Shown here: in pieces, positions 4,045 through 63,000 of the stretch | How the letters are laid out: the number at the start of each line of letters is the position of its first letter | Position numbering within the stretch: the first letter of the stretch is position 1 | DNA from: Xanthostigma xanthostigma | Lineage: Eukaryota; Arthropoda; Insecta; Raphidioptera; Raphidiidae | Direction of reading: 5' to 3' | NCBI GenBank assembly: GCA_963575645.1 | Contig: OY754473.1 | Coordinates: 7,812,001 to 7,876,000 of the forward strand | Length of the DNA stretch: 64,000 bases | Notes under the pieces: model-generated | The model's input: the letters and a program-made list of their open reading frames with translations, nothing else | The model's database searches: none | What the model was told of the DNA's origin: nothing | Made by a program: the position numbers and the translations under genes

Positions 4045-5200
4045 AATCGATCGTAGATTGAAGATTCGTTCAGTTTGGCGCGCAGTAATAAATCGCTCGC
4101 AAATCGAATCGTTTTACAAAACGGGGGTTGTCGATTGTAGATTCAAAATACGTTCAGTTCGGCGAGCAGTATTAAATCGCTCGCAGATTGATACGCTTTA
4201 CAAATCAGGGATGGTCGACCATAGATTGAAGATTCGTTTAGTTCGGCGCGCAGTGATAAATCGCGCGCAGATCGATACGTTTTACAAAACAAGGTCTGTC
4301 GATCGTAGATTGAAGATTCGTTCAGTTTAGTGCGCAGTTTTAAATCGCTCGCAGATCGATACGTTTTACAAAACAGGGGCTGTCGATAGTAGATTAAAGA
4401 TTCGTTCAATTCGGCGCGCAGTAATAAATCGCTCGCTGATCGATACGTTTTACAAAACAGGGGCTGTCGATCGTAGAGTCGTTCAGTTTAGGGCGCAGTA
4501 ATGAATCGCTCGCAGATCGATACGTTTTACAAAACAGGGGTTGTCGATCGTAGATTAAAGATTCGTTCAATTCGGCGCGCAGTAATAAATCGCTCGCTGA
4601 TCGATACGTTTTACAAAACCGGGGCTGTCGATCGTAGATTCGTTCAGTTTAGGGCGCAGTAATAAATCGCTCGCAGATCGATACGTTTTACAAAACAGGG
4701 GCTGTCGATAATAGATTAAAGATTCGTTCAATTCGGCGCGCAGTAATAAATCGCTCGCTGATCGATACGTTTTACAAAACAGGGGCTGTCGATCGTAGAT
4801 TCGTTCAGTTTAGGGCGCAGTAATGAATCGCTCGCAGATCGATACGTTTTACAAAACAGGGGTTGTCGATCGTAGATTAAAGATTCGTTCAATTCGGCGC
4901 GCAGTAATAAATCGCTCGCAGATCGATACGCTTTACAAATCAGGGATGGCCGACCATAGATTGAAGATTCGTTTAGATCGGCGCGCAGTAATAAACTGCT
5001 CGCAGATCGATGCGTTTTACAAAACAGGAGCTGTCAATTGTAGATTGAAGATTGTTCAGTTTGGCGCGCAGTAATAAATCGCTCGCAGATCGATACATTT
5101 TACAAAATAGGGGCTGTCGATAGTAGATTAAAGATTCGTTCAATTCGGCGCGCAGTAATAAATCGCTCGCAGATCGATACGTTTTACAAAACAGGGGCTA
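4045..5200 (+). repeat. Satellite array, about 14 units of 77-85 bp
   Basis: Units share ATTCGTTCAGTT, GGCGCGCAGTAATAAATCGC, TCGCAGATCGATACG and TTTTACAAAACAGGGG. Starts can be traced near 4065, 4150, 4232, 4316, 4400, 4482, 4559, 4639, 4722, 4799, 4884, 4966, 5050 and 5135. From 4400 to 4884, longer units reading CAATTCGGCGC alternate with shorter units reading CAGTTTAGGGCGC, giving a dimeric higher-order repeat of about 160 bp. Units of 84 bp are a multiple of three, so short frames stay open on both strands (for example 4058-4330 plus and 4143-4409 minus), giving 28-residue repeats. I regard those frames as a by-product, not genes. Confidence 0.92.
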
Positions 5201-33797: not shown

Positions 33798-34340
33798 TAA
33801 AAATTGAATTGAAGCCGTCGTCTAAAAAGTCGTTTTCGGGCGAAAAATGGCGCCGAAAACCCGAATAAAGTGAGTGATTGGGCAATCTGGGAATTGTTTC
33901 ACCTAGACTATGACACACGCAGAATATTCCAATTGTCTACTCTTTTTGCGCATGTAAATGAGCAGATCAGAACGTTTCAAACTTTCCACGAATCGATTGA
34001 TGGACATCTTCGTCGATTAAATAAAAGATTTCACTTCCTAAACACCGCTACGTTTGTTTGGTGCCACTGTCAAAACTTGACGCAGCAACAAATAACAATA
34101 CACGTCATGGTGGAAGCAAAGGTATAAACTCAGCACCTCCGCCAGCTTTTACATCTTTTACGATTTTAAGTTTTTATTAATTTATATTTTAGTTCATATT
34201 AATATAACATAAGTTAAGGTACCTTAACTCATGTTAATTGCTATGGTTAGTAATTAATGTTTATTTTCGTAATTATTGTTTTAAATTTTCATATTGTACT
34301 TGAAAAAGTCTAAATCCATAGACGAAACGTTGTACACTAA
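33798..34340. other. Unassigned; 85-residue open frame of unknown status
   Basis: The frame 33870-34127 (plus) encodes 85 residues with no domain I recognise and no repeat partner in the window. It could be an exon fragment or a chance frame. Nothing else supports a gene. Confidence 0.25.
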
Positions 34341-34704
34341 TAATAGTATATTGTGCGACTAGTGAGAGAAGGAGAAGATTCTATGAGCGTGAAATTTGCC
34401 GCACGAGCGTAGCGAGTGCGGTAACACGCGAGTGGAATATTCTCCTTCGATTAATGGTCGCACATAATATTTTATTCAACTAGCACGAGTAATATGTAAT
34501 CGGGGCCCTGATAAAAGAGGGAAAAATAATAAGTCACTTCATTGATTGACGTACCCACCGCCCTCACACAAGATGGCCCTGACTTTCGCTGAATTGCGAT
34601 GCTGTTTTCATATATACAAATCGTTACAACATGAAGTAATTTATTATTTCTCCCGAATTTAGCAGGGCCCCGAAATTATATATTACTCACGCGTGTTGAA
34701 TAAA
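34341..34704 (+). repeat. Hairpin-tailed MITE, copy 2, internally deleted
   Basis: Same order as copy 1: hairpin first, then the MITE with GGGGCCCTG and CAGGGCCCC ends. The interior has lost the segment around the CCTATTGGTCC motif seen in copy 1. Confidence 0.85.
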
Positions 34705-52340: not shown

Positions 52341-52347
52341 ATGAAAT

Positions 52348-52797
52348 TTATTCAACACGCGTGAATAATATATAATTTCGGGGCCCTGCTAAATTCGGGA
52401 GAAATAATAAATTACTTCATGTTGACGCGTAGAGTGTTAATAATGAGCCGAAACTGTACGGTAATGAATTATTACTGCATAGTTTCTGGACCAATAGGAA
52501 AGCGGTAGCGATTTGTATATATGAAAACAGCATCGCAATACAACGAAAGTCATGGCTATCTTGTATGCATCGAGGACGGTGTGTACGTCAATCAATGAAG
52601 TGATTTATTATTTTTCCTTCTTTTATCAGGGCCCCGATTACATATTACTCCTGCTAGTTGAATAAAGTATTATGTGCGACCATTGATCGAAGGAGAATAT
52701 TCCACTCGCGTGTTACCGCACTCGCTAAGCTCGTGCGGCAAATTTCACGCTCATGGAATCTTCTCCTTCTCTCACTAGTCGCACAATATACTATTAT
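52348..52797 (-). repeat. Hairpin-tailed MITE, copy 3
   Basis: Reverse orientation of copy 1: TTATTCAACACGCGTG with CGGGGCCCTGC first, then ATCAGGGCCCCGATTAC and GCTAGTTGAATAA, then the hairpin GATCGAAGGAGAATATTCC ... GGAATCTTCTCC. Confidence 0.85.
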
Positions 52798-53327
52798 TCA
52801 ACACGCGTGAGTAATATGTAATTTCGGGGCCCTGCTAAACGTGGGAGAAATAATATATTACTTCACTATAGTGTAATAATGAATTTTCTGGCGTGGGAGA
52901 AATAATGTATTACTTCACTAGTGTAATAATTAATTTTCTGGACCAATAGAAACTCAGTAGCAAGCCCAAGCGCTAAATAATGAAAAAAACTGCAAGTAGC
53001 TTCTGGACCAATAGGAACGTGGTAGGCGGTATTGTATACTTACATATATGAAAACAGCATCGCAATTCAGCGAAATCATGGCAATCTTGTGTATACACTG
53101 ACGGTGGTACGTCAATCAATGAAGTGATTTATTATTTTTCCCTCTTTTATCAGGGCCCCGATTACATATTACTCCTGCTAGTTGAATAAAGTATTATGTG
53201 CGACTATTGATCGAAGGAGAATATTCCACTCGCGTGTGTTTTACCGCACTCGCTGCGCTCGTGCGGCAAATTTCACGCTCATGGAATCTTCTCCTTCTCT
53301 CACTAGTCGCACAATATACTATTATTA
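52792..53327 (-). repeat. Hairpin-tailed MITE, copy 4, abutting copy 3
   Basis: It starts exactly where the hairpin of copy 3 ends, sharing TATTATTCAAC, and repeats the same order of parts. An additional internal duplication of CGTGGGAGAAATAAT (52842 and 52894) is present. Confidence 0.85.
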
Positions 53328-54259
53328 CTTAAAAAAAGTATAAATACTGCTTTTTAACGGCAAAAACTTTTGAACGATAACTCCGATCATTATGAAGTTT
53401 GGAGACTAGTTTCTCCAATTTAGTAAAATGAAAAAAAAAAACAAACCCGTCAAAGTTGTGCGGATCCGGCTTTGAACGGAGTGACTATAGGCGACCGAAG
53501 TAAAGAAAAGGCTGACGTCTTGGCTTTTAGCCGGGGGTGGGGGGTGGAGCGCCATAAGACAGAGTAATAATATAACACAGTTTTTCACTTTTAATTAATC
53601 TTATACCACTTTATTTGGAGCGGTCTGAAACAATGTCATCCACTGAATCTTAATTTCGCAACTTGCTGAAAATTTATGGTAGCTAATTAAATTTTAATTT
53701 CAGTTTGTTAGCACGGCTTTCTGAAAAGCCACCGGAGCTTTGGTATGTTAAAAGGTAGATATGGAGACGGGAGCAAGAGAGACCGCGGCCGAAAGCTGCA
53801 GTGCACTCGACATACGCGGGAATAACACGTTTATAATAATTTTAGACGGTGAAAAATTCGCCTCAAATGACGTCATAACATTGAGTCGACCGCATATCTT
53901 CGAAACGGAAAAAAATATACGGATTGATACATTTCATCTGAATATGCTGGATTACAGGGAGGGGTGGGAGAGCTACATGCAGGAGGGCCCTTGCACAAAA
54001 ATTTTTATTCGTTCGCAATTAATTTCAATTAATTTTCGATTTTTGAGCACTGAAATATGTTTCAAAACCGCCCCTTCAGCGATTTTTAATACCCCGCGGG
54101 TGCCATTTTCGATTTTTGAAAATGAATTATGCCTAAACAATTAACAGAAATTTTCTTGAGCATCGTTTTGATGTGAAATTTCCTCGTTCAACAGCGTAAC
54201 GAAAATGAGAAACGATAAAATTATACGGGATACAAGGCTCAAATATTAAAAAAACAATT
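53328..54259. other. Unassigned; contains a 127-residue open frame
   Basis: The plus frame 53761-54144 encodes 127 residues (starting M-E-T-G-A-R-E-T) and is longer than most chance frames here. I recognise no domain, no partner repeat and no splice context that would make it a gene. Status unresolved. Confidence 0.25.
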
Positions 54260-54790
54260 TTATTCAACACGCGTGAGAATATATAATTTCGGGGCCCTAA
54301 TAAATTCGGGATAAATAATAAATTACTTCATGTTGACGCGTAGAGTGCTAATAATGAGCCGTACTGTACGATAATAAATTTTCTGGACCAATAGGAACGC
54401 AGTAGCGAGCGGAAGCGTACAACAATGAATAATAACTGCATAGTTTCTGGACCAATAGGAACGCGGTAGCGATTTGTATATATGAAAACAGCATCGCAAT
54501 TCAGTGAAAGTCAGGGCCATCTTGTGTGCATCGAGGGCGGTGGGCACGTCAATCAATGAAGTGATTTATTATTTTTTCCCTATTTTATCAGGGCCCCGAT
54601 TACATATTACTCGTGCTAGTTGAATAAAATATTATGTGCGACCATTGATCGAAGGAGAAGATTCCATGAGCGTGAAATTTGCCGCACGAGCTTAGCGAGT
54701 GCGGTAACACGCGAGTGGAATATTCTCCTTCGATCAATGGTCGCACATAATATTTTATTCAACTAGCATTAGTCGCACAATATACTATTT
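54260..54790 (-). repeat. Hairpin-tailed MITE, copy 5, with the hairpin flipped
   Basis: The MITE part runs as in copies 3 and 4. The attached hairpin, however, reads CATGAGCG before the loop and GAGTGGAATATTCTCC after it, the reverse of its order in copies 3 and 4. This fits flipping through the palindromic arms. Confidence 0.8.
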
Positions 54791-59963: not shown

Positions 59964-60165
59964 TAATAACCGTACAAAAGTGATATGCTTCCATAGGAAA
60001 ATTTACATAAAACATTAATTGGCAAAAATAATCTAAAATGTAAAAGTGTAATCGCAAACGACACCAAATTGCGTTCGTTTGAGTAGAGGATCTCTGTTTT
60101 AATAATTAATTCAATTAAAGTTGATTGATTTTGATGTAAATTTAAGATATTAAATTTTATGTGTA

Positions 60166-60540
60166 AGGTAAGTTGGGGCAAGATCGCACGGAATATAGAT
60201 TACCTAAAGTTTACCTGATCATAGTACGGTAAAATGATTTTTAAAATAAGTCACAATGTACAGGGTTTAACTTTAACATATAAGCAAAAAGTTTGCTGGA
60301 TGAAACCTAATATTGGTTAATAGAAAAGTTTATAAAAAAATAAAATTTAAAAAAATGCACTCGTTCGAACTTGCCTCGCGTAATGGGGTAAGGTCGGATA
60401 ACTTATAAAATTGTAATATAAGTCTTTGAAGCACACTTACGGGGTAAGATCGACTTCCGAACAAGCCCCTGGTAAATTTCTTACTATTTAAACTATAAAT
60501 TTATACTAGTCTAATTTTTGTAAGTATTCGATCTTACCCC
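60166..60540 (+). repeat. Subterminal GGGGYAAGATCG repeats, left side of the pogo element
   Basis: Copies at 60175-60189, 60385-60399, 60441-60455 and, reversed, 60529-60540. They match those on the other side of the gene. The first overlaps the terminal inverted repeat. Confidence 0.85.
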
Positions 60541-60590
60541 GTATATGTATAAATCAGAGGGTTAATTAGACTAGAACAGAGGAAGAAATC

Positions 60591-60596
60591 TTTATT
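60591..60596 (-). promoter_or_regulatory. Likely polyadenylation signal of the transposase gene
   Basis: AATAAA on the minus strand, about 25 bp downstream of the stop codon at 60622-60624. Position and sequence fit; there is no transcript evidence. Confidence 0.5.
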
Positions 60597-60621
60597 TTTA
60601 TGAAAAAACAAAATAAAAATG

Positions 60622-62550
60622 TTAAGCAATATTTAATCCTCTAAATTCTACGCTAAATTCCAAATAATTCTCTTCATTCTGTACGGGATCCGGTAAGAAC
60701 ATTTCTATGTTTTCATAGATTATTGTGTCAATATCGTCAGTTGTAGGCCAAACAAATTTCTTGACCCCTTTATTAAATCTTAAAAACTTCACAACACATT
60801 CGCGCTGAACTTTGTTTATTTCTACGATTTTTCCCGCATAATATTTTATGGTTTTCTTGCTACAGTATTTAGCTAATATCCAAGCATTTAATTTAAAGTT
60901 TTCCAACTTTTCATCTGTATGTTCCTCGTCAAGGAAATCTAAATCGTCATCAGTCTCTTCGTACACCGGTTCAATGCTACTTTCGCTGCTAGTACTTCCT
61001 GGGCTTCGACACTTTTGTTTTTTAGGCTTAGTTGTCTCTGTAGGGCACTTCTTAAATTCTAACAGCTGATTTGCATCTCTCTGCGTGATTACTTCGGCAC
61101 CTGTTGCAACACGTCTTTTTTTTGTGACTTTAGAATTTATGGAATTCTGTTTCACAGTTTCAAGTAGGAGGTCTTCAAATGAGACATTTATTGGCCCAGA
61201 CTGCCCCTCTGAGTTTTCTTCATCAGTTACGTTTTTAGGTGAAGCATTGCTTGGCCCTGCATCTAATATGTCTCTGTCCAGAAGTTCACTATTACCATTT
61301 GCTTCGTCAGTTATGCTTGCACTGGTTTTCTTCATATTTTCATATCTTTTTAATGCTTCGGGATGGTATTTTTCTTTTGGAATAACTGTCGGATTAAAGG
61401 GATATATTCCAGCTTTTTTAAATCCATTTTTAATAACAACTGGACTAATATTATTCCATATTTTCCGCACTTTTTCGGAAAATATTTTCTTTGGCAATTT
61501 AACGCCTTGATTCTTTCTTTGCCAAATGACTAATTCTTCGTCCCATGATGTTTTAAATGACCTAAATACAGCAAGGTCGAGGGGCTGCAAAAGGTGAGAG
61601 GTATGCGGCGGAAGCTTTAAGATCGTTATGCCATTTTCCTGTGCAAGATTTACAACTCTATTGTCTACGTGCGTACTGTGCCCATCATATATAAGCAAAA
61701 GCGGTCGTAGTCCACCTACAGCAGGAATTAACGTTTTCTTAATGAAGTTGACAAAAATGTCAGTCTCCATCCAACCATTACTGCTAGCAGCATACGCTAA
61801 ATCTGTTCCGCCGTCTGGATCTGCCATCCACTGGTCCCATACGTTCTTTCCCTTAAAGACAATTAAAGGGGGCGCTTTGTCACCGACAGCATTTACAGCA
61901 GACAAAATTGTAATGTTTTCTCTTCCGGGGCCACTGGTTACACGGGAACAAGCTGCACCTCTCGCACCAACTACCTTTGTTTTACACGGGTCTATTGACA
62001 GACTCGTCTCATCTAGATTCCAGATCTGCTGTGGAAGATCATTTAATTTTAAGTCATTTAAAACTGTCTCCAATAGGCTAAAATACTCGTTGACTACAAA
62101 AGGATCGGTCATTTTCTTTCGTGAATATTCCACCGCCTGGGGCTTTTTAATTGCAAGTTTATGTCGTTGTTTAAAATTAATAAACCAATCGGCACCTGGC
62201 ATATTATTCTTAAAAGGAGTCTTAATGTTATTTTTTGTTACGTACTCAGCAACAATAAACAACACTTCTTTTCTTGAGAGACCAAACCCCCATTTCTCAA
62301 GTGTTTTAAGACCATTTGCCAAAATCCTTTCATGTTCTAAAGAAATTGCCAAGTCCCTTCCCAGCGTTTGACTTTTTGACCCATGGGTTCCTTTAGCATG
62401 ATCATGCAGTGTTGATTTTGGGATTTTATATTTTTTTGCTGCTCCATGAAGGGTTATTAGTCCTCCTTCCAATTCACTAATAGCACTCGCAAGGTCCTCT
62501 TTGGTGTAATTCTTGCCCCTGTCGGATTTTCTTATATATGTTCGGACCAT
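60622..62550 (-). CDS. pogo-family DDE transposase, 642 residues
   Basis: The protein would bind the ends of its own transposon and cut and join DNA in the nucleus. Residues about 14-55 form a pipsqueak-type helix-turn-helix. About 62-140 resemble the CENP-B-type second helix-turn-helix, with the W-F-x-x-F-K-x-R-H motif near 122-130. About 165-390 are the DDE_1 catalytic domain. Its three acidic residues are D180 (in N-L-D-E-T-S), D289 (in I-Y-D-G-H) and D325 (in L-L-Q-P-L-D), a DD35D spacing. The acidic and basic linker at 400-560 includes K-K-R-R, a possible nuclear signal. The C-terminal part around 570-625 (W-I-L-A-K-Y ... V-K-F-L-R) resembles the C-terminal module of insect pogo-like transposases. 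I chose the methionine at 62550 (M-V-R-T-Y-x-R-K-S-D), typical of the family; the frame stays open upstream to 62658. On this strand TTGTTACAG ends at 62559, a plausible 3' splice acceptor just upstream of the start. No internal stop or frameshift. A host-domesticated gene is less likely because the transposon ends are intact. Confidence 0.93.
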   Translation of the reverse strand: MVRTYIRKSDRGKNYTKEDLASAISELEGGLITLHGAAKKYKIPKSTLHDHAKGTHGSKSQTLGRDLAISLEHERILANGLKTLEKWGFGLSRKEVLFIVAEYVTKNNIKTPFKNNMPGADWFINFKQRHKLAIKKPQAVEYSRKKMTDPFVVNEYFSLLETVLNDLKLNDLPQQIWNLDETSLSIDPCKTKVVGARGAACSRVTSGPGRENITILSAVNAVGDKAPPLIVFKGKNVWDQWMADPDGGTDLAYAASSNGWMETDIFVNFIKKTLIPAVGGLRPLLLIYDGHSTHVDNRVVNLAQENGITILKLPPHTSHLLQPLDLAVFRSFKTSWDEELVIWQRKNQGVKLPKKIFSEKVRKIWNNISPVVIKNGFKKAGIYPFNPTVIPKEKYHPEALKRYENMKKTSASITDEANGNSELLDRDILDAGPSNASPKNVTDEENSEGQSGPINVSFEDLLLETVKQNSINSKVTKKRRVATGAEVITQRDANQLLEFKKCPTETTKPKKQKCRSPGSTSSESSIEPVYEETDDDLDFLDEEHTDEKLENFKLNAWILAKYCSKKTIKYYAGKIVEINKVQRECVVKFLRFNKGVKKFVWPTTDDIDTIIYENIEMFLPDPVQNEENYLEFSVEFRGLNIA

Positions 62551-62561
62551 TTTCAAACCTG

Positions 62562-62998
62562 TAACAAATATTAGTGGTGTAAATGCATTGGGGCAAGATC
62601 GGAACAAAATTATTCGATCTTGCACCTTACATCCACATATGGGGAAAGATCGAACCAACTCATAATATCACTCGTAATTGAGGTTATGTTTTACTAATCC
62701 AAACAGTTCATAAAGATAGACCATTTACAACAGAGATTACCTATATAATGTTAATAAATTACCTTTTGAATCAAAGTTTGACGAATGGGGTATGTTCGAA
62801 TACACAAAATAAACTAAAATGCACAAAACTGTCTATACTTTACACAAAAAACATTGAAACAAGACGCCATCTACTTAAGCACTGCGCACATGTGTTTGCT
62901 CCACGTGGCGAGTAGTCATTGCGCTGTTGCCACAACTATGTGACCTCTGGAGGCTGCGTTCGGACTTGCCCCGTATCCGATCTTACTCCAACTTACCT
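62562..62998 (-). promoter_or_regulatory. Upstream region with transposase-site-like repeats
   Basis: GGGGCAAGATCGGAAC at 62590-62605, a reversed copy near 62613-62626, GGGGAAAGATCGAAC at 62641-62655, GGGGTATGTTCGAA at 62787-62800, and two reversed copies near 62961-62992. The first exon and promoter of the transposase presumably lie here, so the sites could also allow self-regulation. The role in binding is inferred. Confidence 0.65.
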
Positions 62999-63000
62999 TA

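Follow-up and report, generated by a model that had tools for sequence, protein, structure and literature searches.

Members of the pogo superfamily are described as elements of 1.2 to 5.2 kb with open reading frames (ORFs) of 300 to 977 amino acids (aa) and with TA, TAA or TAAA as the target duplication, and most Fot and Fot-like elements are given terminal inverted repeats (TIRs) of 40 to 60 bp (PMC7386202). Insect pogo elements include the DD35-36D/Fot elements of six bees, which have been assigned as Fot-like (PMC8472432). Passer elements are characterized by transposases of 400 to 500 aa that carry either BrkDBD together with HTH_Tnp_Tc5 or HTH_Tnp_Tc5 alone (PMC9976928).

The locus analyzed here lies at positions 60166-62998 of the window, the whole stretch of 64,000 nucleotides of DNA that was analyzed, and is a complete pogo-superfamily element of 2,833 bp. 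It shows the features of the superfamily, namely, a DDE_1 domain with a DDxD triad, an N-terminal helix-turn-helix (HTH) region of the HTH_psq type, and TIRs with a TA duplication. Such an element is ordinary in kind and belongs to a known group, and the evidence for it is unusually clean. We are highly confident that it represents a complete, autonomous, cut-and-paste DNA transposon, Fot-like by its domains, which has recently transposed in this genome.

Element ends, transposase and putative binding sites

Comparison of the element ends revealed a left TIR (60166-60186, plus strand) and a right TIR (62978-62998, minus strand) of 21 bp each, differing by two mismatches; with the TA included, the pair extends over 23 bp and is 91% complementary. 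The TA target-site duplication lies directly outside both ends, at 60164-60165 and 62999-63000. The two repeats and the duplication had been proposed in an earlier, sequence-only reading of this DNA, and both were confirmed. When up to three mismatches were allowed, the TIR pattern matched the two element ends alone in the window, with 0 matches expected in shuffled sequences. Among the 13 stop-to-stop frames of at least 110 aa in the window, only the transposase exceeds 260 aa, which fits the previous description of this element as the only complete one there.

The transposase gene (60622-62550, minus strand), delimited by its ORF, Pfam matches and alignment, encodes 642 aa and is uninterrupted, its sole stop being the terminal one, just as the sequence-only reading had stated. 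With base frequencies as the model, the expected number of chance ORFs of this length in the window is ∼6e-17. Pfam detected DDE_1 (residues 214-377; 2.6e-22), DDE_3 (7.1e-8), and HTH_psq (residues 18-56; 1.1e-4, above its cut-off). The catalytic residues D180, D289 and D325, of which the last two are separated by 35 residues (DD35D), were all present, as had been proposed, and were invariant across 16 aligned members, comprising the window protein and 15 chosen relatives, all of the same genome. The further proposal of two HTH regions held only for the first of them, HTH_psq: Pfam did not detect a second one, HTH_Tnp_Tc5, in the window transposase, though it assigned this domain to 10 of the 16 aligned members (DDE_1 to 16, HTH_psq to 13). 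The protein start MVR.Y.RK is common to relatives such as L005, L013, L022, L030 and L069.

A sequence search of solved structures with the transposase gave no match. Profile A2 matched the LCoR protein 2cob (1.6e-7) over profile positions 10-55, corresponding to the place of HTH_psq, together with three weak others. Single-sequence structure predictions were unusable (mean pLDDT of 48.6 and 36.0). No relatives were found in viral contigs, phages or plasmids; the viral contigs yielded two pattern matches, neither of which was confirmed.

A polyadenylation signal, AATAAA, can be read from the sequence downstream of the stop codon (60591-60596, minus strand), in agreement with the sequence-only reading. 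Upstream of the coding region, there is a candidate 5′-UTR intron (62559-62762, minus strand) with its donor at 62762 and its acceptor at 62559; this 3′ splice acceptor ends 8 nt ahead of the transposase ATG, just before position 62558. Acceptor-like sequences 0 to 8 nt upstream of the ATG were also observed in L013-L017, L022, L027 and L028, a set in which several copies belong to a single family, and L030 has a pyrimidine-rich acceptor farther upstream. No clear acceptor ahead of the ATG was seen in L020 and L026. The acceptor and its counterparts in relatives support the earlier idea of a spliced transcript, and the transposase transcript would probably lose the 5′-UTR intron by splicing.

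The noncoding ends of the element contain multiple copies of a 12-bp motif, GGGGYAAGATCG. With up to two mismatches allowed, it occurs at 13 places in the window, compared to a mean of 3.34 and a maximum of 9 in 100 shuffles, with five places in the left noncoding end, six in the right noncoding end, none in the coding sequence and two in the rest of the window. One copy lies within the left TIR (60175-60186, plus strand), and a left subterminal array (60366-60540) contains copies at 60366-60377 (minus), 60385-60396 (plus), 60441-60452 (plus) and 60529-60540 (minus). The right subterminal array (62590-62972) has copies at 62590-62601 (plus), 62615-62626 (minus), 62641-62652 (plus), 62787-62798 (plus) and 62961-62972 (minus), followed by the copy within the right TIR (62978-62989, minus). 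Three motifs were also seen in every one of four separate elements of a sister family (L013-L016, with L008 and L014 being a single place): a TIR copy, a subterminal copy and a copy upstream of the ATG. We regard the motifs as probable transposase-binding sites. The N-terminal HTH region would bind the motif in the TIRs and in the subterminal arrays, and the DDE/D domain would cut the element out and integrate it at TA.

Genomic copies, empty sites and recent movement

Searching the element's own genome (623 Mb; 11 of 11 candidates scored) yielded 11 DNA matches, four of them full length at 99 to 100% identity and seven partial at 64 to 69%. The full-length copies are located on contigs C10 (L001, the window copy, at 7.87 Mb, and L004, at 11.99 Mb), C7 (L002) and C2 (L003). 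Near-identical copies, which the sequence-only reading had suggested looking for along with empty sites, thus exist: there are three full-length copies besides that of the window, and L002, on a different contig, shows 0 differences from L001 over 2,833 bp. L003 differs from L001 by eight substitutions and an in-frame 3-nt deletion and retains an open ORF of 641 aa, and L004 differs by nine substitutions and eight gap columns and is frameshifted, with an ORF of 535 aa.

TA is present on both sides of all four full-length copies, and blastn among the flanks of different copies gave no match at E 1e-3, indicating that the copies arose by separate insertions. Segmental duplication as their source is excluded by the same lack of flank matches. 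The identical copy on another chromosome (C7) therefore points to recent movement of the element. Assuming between 1e-8 and 1e-9 substitutions per site and generation, the absence of differences dates the split between L001 and L002 to within roughly the last 53,000 to 530,000 generations, though their identity could alternatively come from gene conversion.

Further evidence for transposition came from L003, which sits inside an abundant repeat on C2, unoccupied copies of which represent paralogous empty sites. When the two flanks of L003 were joined, with the TA included once, they matched all 40 places scored among 2,662 candidates at 95 to 99% identity, with each match running from position 1 to position 192-217 of 240 and thereby crossing the junction at position 120. 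All four empty sites that were inspected showed continuous sequence with a single TA. The ends of the element and its TA duplication are thus fixed independently. For the window copy, the joined flanks matched only the two flanks of L001 itself, and no empty counterpart was found; exact empty sites were accordingly recovered for L003 and not for L001. Together, the identical copy L002 and the empty sites of L003 support the original proposal of an intact and possibly recently active pogo element. The transposase may still be enzymatically active at present.

A long intact ORF might also be expected of a domesticated, pogo-derived host gene of the CENP-B or TIGD-like type, whose protein is kept by selection, and pogo transposases are described as repeatedly domesticated in vertebrates (PMC7386202). 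However, the element retains both TIRs and the target-site duplication as well as an intact catalytic triad, and it has an identical copy on another contig and empty sites for L003. Moreover, the five coding substitutions in L003 comprise four nonsynonymous changes and one synonymous change, a ratio about as expected without selection on L003; two of the nonsynonymous changes affect G198 and Q322, residues that do not vary among the aligned members, and L004 is frameshifted. As signs against its interpretation, the sequence-only reading had named a single copy per genome, at an orthologous position across related species and under purifying selection, or the presence of decayed relatives only; within this one genome, we found several copies, one of them undecayed, and no sign of purifying selection on L003. 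We therefore reject domestication as far as one genome allows, having seen neither loss of the TIRs, nor a single copy, nor purifying selection, and consider it exceedingly improbable.

The distribution of the terminal sequences bears on the present state of the family. With up to two mismatches, the TIR pattern was found at 15 places genome-wide, compared to 0 for the reversed control. Eight of these are exact and correspond to both ends of the four full-length copies, and seven carry two mismatches; four of the seven bear the end sequence of the sister family, which shares ∼50% protein identity with the window transposase and of which two members taken with both ends were TA-flanked, and the other three lie on C3, C4 and C12. 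Since the exact 21-bp end is confined to the four full-length copies, no brood of miniature elements (MITEs) or other non-autonomous derivatives with exact ends was seen genome-wide; this search would miss forms with internal deletions whose ends have diverged further.

With only four copies in the genome, the element may have been active for a short time only, or it may by now have been silenced. The low copy number, the lack of a non-autonomous brood with exact ends, and the damaging changes already present in two of the four copies would be consistent with an element that moved recently and is now inert, its copies being young and its transposase silenced or non-catalytic. L003, in particular, may be impaired by its changes at the invariant residues G198 and Q322 although its frame is open. 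Against this, complete ends, an intact frame and catalytic residues that are invariant in the family are all retained by L001 and L002, and we hold an inert state to be unlikely, if not negligibly so. Somewhat less unlikely, though still tentative, is a recent arrival by horizontal transfer rather than descent from a resident lineage. All four copies are at least 99% identical, the nearest relatives found in the same genome show about 50 to 55% identity in protein, and none of the 11 DNA matches is an old, decayed copy of this family; however, a resident lineage held at low copy number would look alike in one genome.

The C-terminal module and the pogo-rich block on C10

The transposase ends in a C-terminal module (about residues 555-620, with approximate limits; 60691-60888, minus strand) that recurs in relatives. 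With all 37 candidates scored and E values up to 1 accepted, it was found at 33 places in the same genome, four of which belong to the family of the window element and eight of which have E above 0.001. Its pattern is roughly DxVLVxFxxKKxxxxYVGxI, followed by FLR and then FxxP. Loci with the module include L017, L020, L030 and L038 and many of L043-L068. In relatives L034-L037, a Cys/His-rich C-terminal segment, PHD-like by eye, occurs instead of the module; Pfam matched PHD in one of the 16 members, at only 0.13.

Pfam gave no family at cut-off for 19 aligned module members, a set that includes closely similar copies. Tudor_5 appeared below threshold in two of the 19 (best, 0.036), with unrelated families equally weak beside it. 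The search of solved structures with the module profile (A1) returned only an antibody light chain (E 0.6). Among the literature matches listed for pogo with Tudor domain, PHD finger or DDE_1, no title concerned such a module. A reader function for the module would, at this stage, be a guess.

The window element lies at the left margin of a block of 8.5 Mb on C10 (7.87-16.36 Mb), where it is the leftmost DDE_1 match. This block, the bounds of which were set after the data were seen, holds 83 of the 150 scored DDE_1 matches (of 317 candidates), compared to ∼2 expected per 9-Mb stretch; other contigs have 0 to 11 matches each in the same set. Of the 66 places found by protein search, 28 fall inside the block. 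RVT_1 shows a weaker excess there (17 of the best 150 of 5,371 candidates), and protein kinases are represented by 0 of 143 rows, which is not significant (P 0.12). In-frame stops are commoner among DDE_1 matches inside the block (21 of 83) than outside (6 of 67; P 0.01). The block has the look of a transposon-rich region in which old copies are retained, and possible causes are low recombination, heterochromatin, or a sex-linked or misassembled region.

If the faintly Tudor-like module acted as a chromatin reader that biases the insertion or retention of pogo elements, it could have helped to build this block. Of the 29 rows in which other families carry the module, 23 fall in the block, compared to 81 of the 146 DDE_1 matches overall (Fisher P 0.02); in this test, rows are non-independent, the groups overlap, the block was bounded post hoc, and E exceeds 0.001 for eight of the 33 module rows. 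Since the block keeps more decayed copies, age confounds this association, and we view such a role of the module as quite doubtful.

Several other repeats were noted in the window. A tandem array at 4047-5199 consists of 14 copies of an 84-bp unit, and one repeat family, among many short repeats, occurs in direct and inverted orientation at 330-783, 34339-34627, 52346-53326 and 54256-54768. Elsewhere, COX1 matches on nuclear contigs (C6:1195571-1196020 and C2:16906869-16907126) contain in-frame stops under the standard code and are perhaps nuclear mitochondrial inserts. A COX1 that reads as insect-like is encoded on contig C28.

Comparison with described pogo systems

Both the element and its ORF have lengths within the ranges given for the pogo superfamily (PMC7386202). 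The element resembles Fot and Fot-like elements, as characterized there, in its HTH_psq and DDE_1 domains, DD35D triad and TA target, with HTH_Tnp_Tc5 found here only in relatives. In contrast, its 21-bp TIR is shorter than the 40 to 60 bp of most Fot-like elements, and the subterminal motif array and the C-terminal module are without mention in the available portion of what that account says of Fot-like elements (PMC7386202). Given the short TIR and a placement made by domains, we refer to the element as Fot-like by domains rather than as a settled member. The bee DD35-36D/Fot elements, compared by description, are likewise insect pogo elements, with a DD35-36D triad and a Fot-like assignment (PMC8472432). 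Passer shares the DD35D triad, the TA duplication and a TIR under 30 bp; unlike Passer, however, the window transposase has HTH_psq and neither BrkDBD with HTH_Tnp_Tc5 nor HTH_Tnp_Tc5 alone, and it is 642 aa long rather than 400 to 500 (PMC9976928).

With its intact frame, identical sibling, ends proven by the empty sites of L003, and defined TA target, the element makes a promising candidate for a functional pogo-type transposition system. The C-terminal module and the sharply bounded block on C10 raise the question of whether transposon-borne domains influence where elements accumulate. Such a system could also serve to probe the role of the many subterminal putative binding sites; the term "subterminal repeats" was not met among the literature matches listed. 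The Drosophila pogo transposase reportedly recognizes a 12-bp TIR sequence, as Wang et al. are said to have described in 1999. Compared to Drosophila pogo, the present element bears nine further copies of its motif outside the TIRs, at which binding by the transposase is predicted.
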